DNA of 64,000 nt from NCBI RefSeq assembly GCF_900105005.1, contig NZ_LT629748.1, positions 1,612,001 through 1,676,000 on the forward strand, in the 5' to 3' direction. Below the pieces are notes generated by a model, which was given only the letters and a program-made list of their open reading frames with translations, ran no database searches and was not told the DNA's origin. Positions 26,821 to 27,372 of this stretch are shown piece by piece; position 1 is the stretch's first letter; each line of letters starts with the position of its first letter. Position numbers and translations under genes: made by a program. Source of the DNA: Halopseudomonas litoralis. GTDB lineage: Bacteria; Pseudomonadota; Gammaproteobacteria; Pseudomonadales; Pseudomonadaceae.

Positions 26821-27309
26821 TTAATCCCCGTCGCCAGGCGGCGGTGTAGTAGTACGGCAGCTGGCTGGGAAGTATTTGTTGTTGTCTGCAGTGCTAGGCT
26901 TGCACTGCCACAAAATCGGGCCGGAGTATCCTGCAGCGATAGTTGCACCTGCAGTGGTTTGCGGCGTCATCACAACAGTAGATCCGTCTAGACCAGTAAC
27001 ATTTGTGCCTTTGATAGTGGCGGTGACCACGCCACTGGTTACATTAACTTTCTCAACATACTGTGAGGTGATGTCTCCTTCGGCATCCAACCCAGCAGCC
27101 TCGTTGTTAGCAGGTAGAGTTCCTTCTGATTGAAAGTACTCTGCAACAGCAGTACGGCCTGAGGAGGCAAAGGTCAATACTTCAGACATCTTTGCGCGGT
27201 TAGTGTAATCCTGATAAGCCGGCAGCGCGATTGCAGCCAAAATACCGATGATCGCCACTACGATCATCAGTTCGATAAGCGTAAAACCTTTTTGCATTTG
27301 AGCTTTCAT
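26821..27309 (-). CDS. type IVa major pilin (PilA-like) inside the prophage
   Basis: A 162-residue type IV prepilin: leader MKAQMQKG cleaved before Phe, then the FTLIELMIVVAIIGILAAIA helix with Glu5 of the mature protein, a globular domain, and a C-terminal disulphide loop between WQCKPS and ASCRTT. All features of a functional PilA are present. Start ATG 27309 has GGAGAT six bases upstream. It lies in reverse orientation between the tail operon and the lysis genes, is AT-richer than the phage genes, and has a near-consensus sigma-54 promoter upstream, as host pilA genes do. It is therefore probably a host-derived cargo ('moron') gene that could alter the cell's pilus, for instance against competing pilus-specific phages. 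That role is inference. Confidence 0.93.
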   Translation of the reverse strand: MKAQMQKGFTLIELMIVVAIIGILAAIALPAYQDYTNRAKMSEVLTFASSGRTAVAEYFQSEGTLPANNEAAGLDAEGDITSQYVEKVNVTSGVVTATIKGTNVTGLDGSTVVMTPQTTAGATIAAGYSGPILWQCKPSTADNNKYFPASCRTTTPPPGDGD

Positions 27310-27356
27310 TTAAATCTCCATATTTTTTGAAAGGCCGTATGACCTATCTGAGGCAT

Positions 27357-27372
27357 AGCAGGTACCGTGCCA
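27357..27372 (-). promoter_or_regulatory. sigma-54 (RpoN) -24/-12 promoter of the pilin gene
   Basis: On the minus strand the sequence is TGGCACGGTACCTGCT against the consensus TGGCACGN4TTGCW: one mismatch, with the invariant GG and GC at the right spacing. It lies about 48 bases before the pilin start codon, giving a leader of roughly 35 bases. A CTGTC half-site (minus strand, 27453-27457), similar to PilR-binding half-sites, lies about 110 bases upstream of the expected start. Confidence 0.78.

Follow-up and report, generated by a model that had tools for sequence, protein, structure and literature searches.

A complete type IVa pilin gene and a divergent HTH-Sel1 gene lie between the tail and lysis genes of a Halopseudomonas litoralis prophage

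The window analyzed here (the whole stretch of 64,000 nucleotides) covers genome positions 1612001-1676000 of the single-contig 3.99-Mb chromosome of Halopseudomonas litoralis. It contains a PilA-type gene for a type IVa prepilin of 162 aa (26821-27309, minus strand), flanked by two groups of plus-strand genes with PHROG matches: phage tail-tip genes (19296-26748; phrog_6128 in two ORFs, phrog_9600, phrog_26277, phrog_6079, and phrog_5076), whose start at ATG 19296 was read from the junction sequence, and the lysis genes (28089-29137), encoding an endolysin (phrog_90) and an Rz-like spanin (phrog_2466). These are the only recognized phage genes within the window. Divergent from the pilin is a second gene (27568-28029, plus strand; GTG start), here called the partner, whose 153-aa product has an HTH-like N terminus and a Sel1 repeat. 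The pilin is preceded by a predicted RpoN (-24/-12) site, TGGCACGGTACCTGCT (27357-27372, minus strand), and upstream of this site are two palindromes (27490-27545) comprising four TGGCACA/TGTGCCA half-sites at 27492, 27507, 27524, and 27539, a putative operator array of the partner. A terminator-like hairpin with a 9-bp stem and without a T run was read by eye in the gap that separates the pilin from the last tail gene (26766-26796).

Two characters of a type IVa major pilin, the leader and a globular domain with a cysteine pair, were found in the sequence. The N terminus, MKAQMQKG/FTLIELMIVVAIIGILAAIALPAYQDY, is a class III leader ending in G, followed by F+1, E5, and a hydrophobic helix, and the C-terminal cysteine pair is Cys136 and Cys151. 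Pfam analysis matched the protein to PF00114 (Pilin) over profile positions 2 to 108 of 108 (E 1.5e-21; 77.8 bits against a threshold of 22) and to PF07963 (E 5.7e-10; 38.8 bits against a threshold of 21.2). An earlier sequence-only reading of this DNA had described a complete pilin with leader, Glu5, and disulfide loop, and this description is confirmed. The pilin also matched two phage protein families, phrog_27437 (function unknown; 4.1e-25) and, over residues 2-44 only, phrog_3433 (pilin, moron; 1.7e-11), so pilin genes in phages have precedent; the PHROG library describes no partner gene for either family. The RpoN site reads TGGCACG-GTAC-CTGCT and agrees with TGGCACG-N4-TTGCW at 11 of 12 scored positions, with GG-N10-GC intact. 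rpoN itself is encoded in the host genome.

At the right attachment site of the prophage (29706-29744, plus strand), the 3' end of tRNA-Leu is repeated exactly over 39 bp. The intact tRNA-Leu(taa) gene is located about 102 kb upstream of its repeat, at genome 1539400-1539486, and forms the other prophage boundary. Between the attachment sites, besides the tail-tip and lysis genes, are genes for an integrase, a CI-like repressor, small and large terminase, portal, head protease, major tail, and tape-measure proteins. The prophage is interrupted at TTTTTTAT by a conjugative element, presumably of Tn4371-like character, with a size of about 57 kb as derived from the junction coordinates (genome about 1574424-1631280; window 1-19280). 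The element begins just past the gene after the tape measure and ends at window 19280, in an intergenic stretch; its right junction, TTTTTTAT (19273-19280), was located by comparison with an uninterrupted relative. It contains its own integrase, Trb genes, GajA/GajB-like defense genes, an RND-type efflux gene, and a cation efflux gene. Because the flanking DNA shows the full hallmark gene set, split by the conjugative element, the notion that the phage genes are a remnant consisting of tail tip and lysis genes only was rejected. The proposed location of the pilin, inside a prophage and in reverse orientation between tail and lysis genes, was borne out by this tRNA-Leu-bounded element.

The partner gene was overlooked in the sequence-only reading. 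Its product matched PF08238 (Sel1) with 45.3 bits against a threshold of 30.7, and Sel1 folds head the lists of PDB structures obtained for it in structure searches. In an AlphaFold2 model of the protein (mean pLDDT of 94.6), residues 3-50 have the element order E-H-H-E-H, which is HTH-like. Foldseek gave weak matches to MerR proteins; the list from a second structure search was filled by Sel1 domains and hardly probes the N-terminal domain. HTH_17 matched 5 of 17 homologous N termini (best, 1.4e-4), the window's own partner not being among the matches listed. Against PHROGs there was only a weak match (phrog_8741), against NCBIfam only MotX and MerG, both far under cut-off, and a PADLOC search gave no match. 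A protein search returned 160 relatives at an E value of <=1e-8. The partner is probably an undescribed, regulator-like gene.

A scan with the partner alignment, using one genome per species, yielded 80 loci; 68 of these (L099-L166) were taken as the HTH-Sel1 family, and the remaining 12 (L167-L178) were set apart as Sel1 proteins of other kinds. At 61 of the 68 family loci, a type IV pilin was present within 1.5 kb; it was divergent at 52, on the same strand at 8, and scored as convergent at 1, and at two of the 61 (L122 and L140) the nearest neighbor was a minor-pilin-like gene. The seven family loci with no pilin within 1.5 kb were L101, L103, L106, L115, L133, L135, and L138. None of the 12 other Sel1 loci had a pilin within 3.5 kb, a motif match at L175 being no pilin. 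Hosts of the family include Polaromonas, Rhodoferax, Variovorax, Noviherbaspirillum, Comamonas, Ectothiorhodospira, and Pseudomonas. With the partner recognized, the prophage pilin becomes part of a recurring mobile two-gene cassette. At two of the loci with a partner and no pilin, L101 (Halopseudomonas xiamenensis) and L103 (Pseudomonas sp. MYb185), the gene occupies what appears, judged from N termini, to be the same chromosomal site, between helicase-like and transporter-like ORFs.

Promoter conservation was assessed in 70 pairs, comprising the 61 family loci, the window, L013, L014, L047, L180, and four plasmids. An RpoN-like site scoring at least 9/12 was found at 65 of the 70 pilins, compared with 4.1 expected from dinucleotide shuffles; 59 scored at least 10/12 (0.85 expected) and 36 at least 11/12 (0.11 expected). 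One further pair (L012), 1.75 kb apart with a transposase between, was excluded from this count and its site read separately; L093, L094, L095, and L096, which are the same loci as L100, L101, L103, and L099, were excluded from the RpoN, palindrome, half-site, and CTGTC counts. No RpoN-like site was found in L180, L279, and L298. The claim of an upstream RpoN site that matches the consensus at all but one position stands. The sequence-only reading had further pointed to CTGTC, a PilR-like half-site, which is present once upstream of the prophage pilin. This part was not supported: CTGTC was seen at 11 of 52 divergent pilin/partner intergenic regions against 13.9 expected, which is chance level.

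Words of the TGGCACA type number 13 in the whole 64 kb, and 4 of them are in the pilin/partner intergenic region. Perfect inverted repeats with 7-bp arms occurred within 150 nt of the partner start at 30 of 62 loci, against 8.3 expected, and were absent from the other 32. Where the repeats are clear, the half-sites vary by lineage (TGGCACA, TGACACA, TGTCGC, and GGCCGAC, the last from an Ectothiorhodospira locus); the array of contig DXBL01000017.1 shares the half-site of the window. We infer from these lineage-specific half-sites that the palindromes may be the operator of a diversifying private regulator. Alternatively, they might serve a host activator, in which case the Sel1 protein would not regulate the pilin and could be, for example, a cotraveling pilin-handling or glycosylation factor. 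Activator sites usually lie upstream of RpoN sites, as the array does here, and 5 of 10 ORFs chosen by size downstream of the pilin are O-antigen-ligase-like (L100, L105, L107, L111, and L119), four of them with a PglL motif. Such glycosylation-ligase-like neighbors would also resemble an ordinary chromosomal pilin locus, which counts against reading the pair as a mobile cassette. Against this explanation stand the HTH_17 matches among homologous N termini and the HTH-like element order of the model; half-sites that differ by lineage would also be expected of a partner that diversifies more than of a single host activator that is conserved, and CTGTC is at chance. We regard the host-activator explanation as rather unlikely.

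The genome encodes four PilA-like pilins (E <= 1e-20), each beside an HTH-Sel1 partner or its remains. The prophage pair is one; the second, at genome 2334730, is likewise an intact pair; at the third, at genome 3846169, a transposase gene lies between the pilin and a broken partner; and the fourth, at genome 3481538, is decayed, its pilin being short and lacking an RpoN-like site. Two transposase genes with the same N-terminal sequence (L012, 7103-8101; L014, 5335-6333) are neighbors of two of the other host pilins; in one case the transposase gene separates the pilin from its partner. The GC content of the prophage pilin is 50.1% and that of the three others 48.6 to 51.4%. An AT-richer composition had been offered as a sign of separate acquisition; because the other pilins of the genome span the same range, this argument was dropped.

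PilB is encoded at genome 479467-481170, more than 1.1 Mb from the prophage pilin, and PilB, PilC, and PilD-like genes are all present. No pilin motif was found in the 14 kb read around pilB. The possibility that an ordinary pilA locus had been misread as a prophage was therefore rejected. Nor is the prophage copy the strain's only pilA in its usual place, the finding that would have overturned the sequence-only reading; the three other PilA-like pilins lie elsewhere, none adjoining pilBCD, and the suggested search for another pilA at that locus found none in those 14 kb. In the genus, which includes H. xiamenensis, Pseudomonas sp. MYb185, Pseudomonas sp. WN033, and Candidatus Pseudomonas excrementavium, PilB gave 33 matches in 32 of 37 genomes, and 30 loci were taken, each from a separate genome. 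A pilin was present at pilBCD in 28 of these 30, within 1.5 kb in 27 and about 1.7 kb away in WN033. The exceptions were the genome of the window and one other, G023, which is 83% complete and was read over 1.5 kb per side. A pilin search of 5.8 billion proteins, in which the 7994 candidates sharing most words were scored, identified the WN033 pilin (L042; 73-74% identical) as the closest named pilin of known locus among the matches listed. Like the prophage pilin, this canonical pilA beside pilBCD has an RpoN-like site; unlike it, it adjoins pilB, has no partner gene seen there, and is not on a phage.

The multiple pilins of this host raise the question of whether the prophage copy is a phage trait. 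In Neisseria, silent and expressed pilin copies exchange head domains, and the dispersed pilin loci here might similarly form a recombination reservoir that swaps heads, with the prophage copy as one donor or acceptor kept for host pilus variation. The four loci do have conserved 5' ends and heads that are only 30-39% identical, and one is truncated and lacks an RpoN-like site. Three of the four, however, have intact frames and RpoN-like sites, which argues that they are not silent copies, and unrelated phages and plasmids carry the pair as well. We consider the reservoir distinctly unlikely.

Recurrence was followed in phages and predicted viruses. In contig DXBL01000017.1, the pair occupies the same slot, and its pilin head is only 23% identical to that of the window (23/101 positions) compared with 82-89% for four tail proteins and 75% for the partner. 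Among its other neighbors, a further tail protein shows 55% identity across 161 residues and Rz shows 64% identity; one tail protein and the endolysin were without a match in this comparison. In IMG/VR, whose contigs are predicted viruses, 226 contigs had pilin relatives and 80 of them were examined. The partner family was found in eight: L254 (this genome's own), L261, L271, L279, L283, L294, L295 (a copy of L294), and L298. Three of these (L261, L271, and L294) have the order phrog_6128, phrog_9600-matching protein, tail protein, opposite-strand pilin, and partner. Their flanking proteins that can be aligned to those of the window are 29-41% identical, so these are deeply diverged contigs with the same slot and orientation; in L261 and L271 a small gene precedes the pilin. 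L261 and L294 share 92.7% identity in the tail protein and 89.9% in the partner but 24.4% in the pilin head, whereas L271 is more evenly diverged from both (tail, 79-80%; partner, 56-59%; pilin head, 33-47%). Elsewhere, the pair lies beside P2-like tail genes and a methylase gene (L180, a P2-like viral contig), with a phrog_4408 gene on one side and a tape-measure gene on the other (L279), and no more than 5 kb from genes for an exonuclease and a helicase (L283). Many other pilin contigs of IMG/VR (in L255-L333), phage cargo and host DNA taken together, have an RpoN-like site and no partner gene.

The slot is usually empty, which counts against the cassette reading. Related tail DNA was found in Pseudomonas aeruginosa phages such as Turba; in Turba the slot is empty, and a gap of 245 bp separates the lysozyme gene from the corresponding last tail gene. 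Of 30 IMG/VR tail relatives, 29 are without a pilin, the exception being the contig of this genome itself. With its own RpoN-type site and a slot that is empty or pilin-free in these relatives, the pilin is a candidate moron. A tblastn search of 50,697 phage records with the low-complexity filter on found neither pilin nor partner.

The pair is also present on plasmids. A plasmid search with the pilin returned six records, namely, two chromosome-sized Neisseria gonorrhoeae records, one Legionella plasmid, and three with the partner; pA6H3 was retrieved by the partner query only. An Aquincola plasmid carries a divergent pilin/partner pair. In the plasmids pA6H3, pA46H2, and pA62H1, Rep is 99-100%, integrase 96-99.7%, and partner 85-95% identical, compared with 21-40% for the pilin heads. 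Overall, elements that share 82-100% identity in tail or backbone proteins have pilin heads with only 21-40% identity. Chance acquisition of ordinary chromosomal pilin loci by phages and plasmids, leaving neutral baggage in the prophage, would suit the pair's occurrence in Beta- and Gammaproteobacteria with a mobile context recognized at only a minority of family loci, as well as the 29 tail relatives without a pilin, but it is improbable given the slot and orientation kept across deeply diverged phages, the intact frames and promoter, and heads that diverge while partner and tail proteins remain alike.

The three plasmids are those of Antarctic Pseudomonas whose PIL modules were described in 2019 (PMC6896180). 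In that study, attachment and biofilm formation of Escherichia coli rose with two of the three plasmid pilin modules; the paper gives 70% identity for the pA6H3 and pA62H1 pilins, which disagrees with the 38% computed here, and the word sel1 is absent from the text searched. The prophage pair resembles these modules in that a PilA is carried on a mobile element, backbones are near identical, pilins are divergent, and the same partner family adjoins. It differs in that the Antarctic pilin and partner are on one strand, on plasmids, and, in the text available, were assayed for biofilm only, in E. coli. Our literature search, which covered few subscription journals, found no title or abstract describing a pilin/HTH-Sel1 pair or a phage-borne PilA.

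The best reading, to which we give a probability of roughly 60%, is that the pair forms a mobile cassette for pilus-coat conversion, controlled by the host RpoN and probably equipped with a regulator of its own. On this view, a temperate siphophage would have an accessory slot, bounded by the last tail gene and the lysis genes, that holds a gene for a major type IVa pilin together with a divergent gene for an HTH-Sel1 regulator. Once the phage is lysogenic, transcription of the pilin would start at its own RpoN-type promoter and oppose the phage late genes, and the partner would probably tune it by binding the palindrome array between the two genes. A promoter that belongs to the host RpoN class and opposes the late genes should leave the cassette functional despite the split in the prophage. 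The ordinary pilus machine of the host would assemble the prophage pilin, so that the pili of the lysogen carry the subunit of the element. The head domain may be exchanged, probably by recombination via the conserved 5' end and flanks, with the result that related phages and plasmids would carry different coats. Likely selective benefits would be escape from pilus-using phages and changed adhesion, different coats being favored by such phages or by surfaces, and replacement of the pilus coat is the functional reading that we infer to be best. What the sequences themselves establish is the layout of the cassette, the pairing of its two genes, the conservation of the promoter site, the recurrence on phages and plasmids, the divergent pilin heads of close relatives, and the missing pilin at pilBCD of this host. 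The sequence-only proposal, in which a phage-carried pilin wired into host RpoN/PilSR control could block superinfection or alter twitching, adhesion, or DNA uptake, is partly supported.

O-antigen conversion, in which lysogeny modifies the LPS, and the prophage products Pf4 pVII, Aqs1, and Gp21 likewise change a surface structure that other phages use; a complete replacement subunit would be unlike either. Those three products, which inhibit the pilus or its expression, are prophage inhibitors of type IV pili named in a review (PMC11436027). If replacement is true, the cassette would be to pili what O-antigen conversion is to the LPS. A stronger form of the conversion reading, which we put forward only tentatively and with some doubt, is a dedicated system of temperate phages and small plasmids: a swappable major pilin and a private HTH-Sel1 switch that reads an operator code of its own, both making use of the RpoN and pilus machine of the host and favored by selection because they replace the receptor of phages that bind pili, with the pilA beside pilBCD displaced in this host such that the prophage supplies a main pilin. 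The pilin in use affects phage sensitivity, adhesion, and DNA uptake, and the cassette suggests a route to pilin diversity through horizontal supply by phages and plasmids. The HTH-Sel1 family may serve as a marker for pilin cassettes, and it predicts, for many Beta- and Gammaproteobacteria, a candidate regulator-operator pair alongside their pilin genes.

Two further features were observed where the conjugative element ends in the window. The GajA/GajB-like (Gabija) defense genes lie close to its right end (window 16172-18813, minus strand) and have a GC content of 48.9%. The phrog_6128 protein beyond it is encoded by a single ORF in Turba, by two ORFs in the window (19296-22879), and aligns as two adjacent pieces in DXBL01000017.1.
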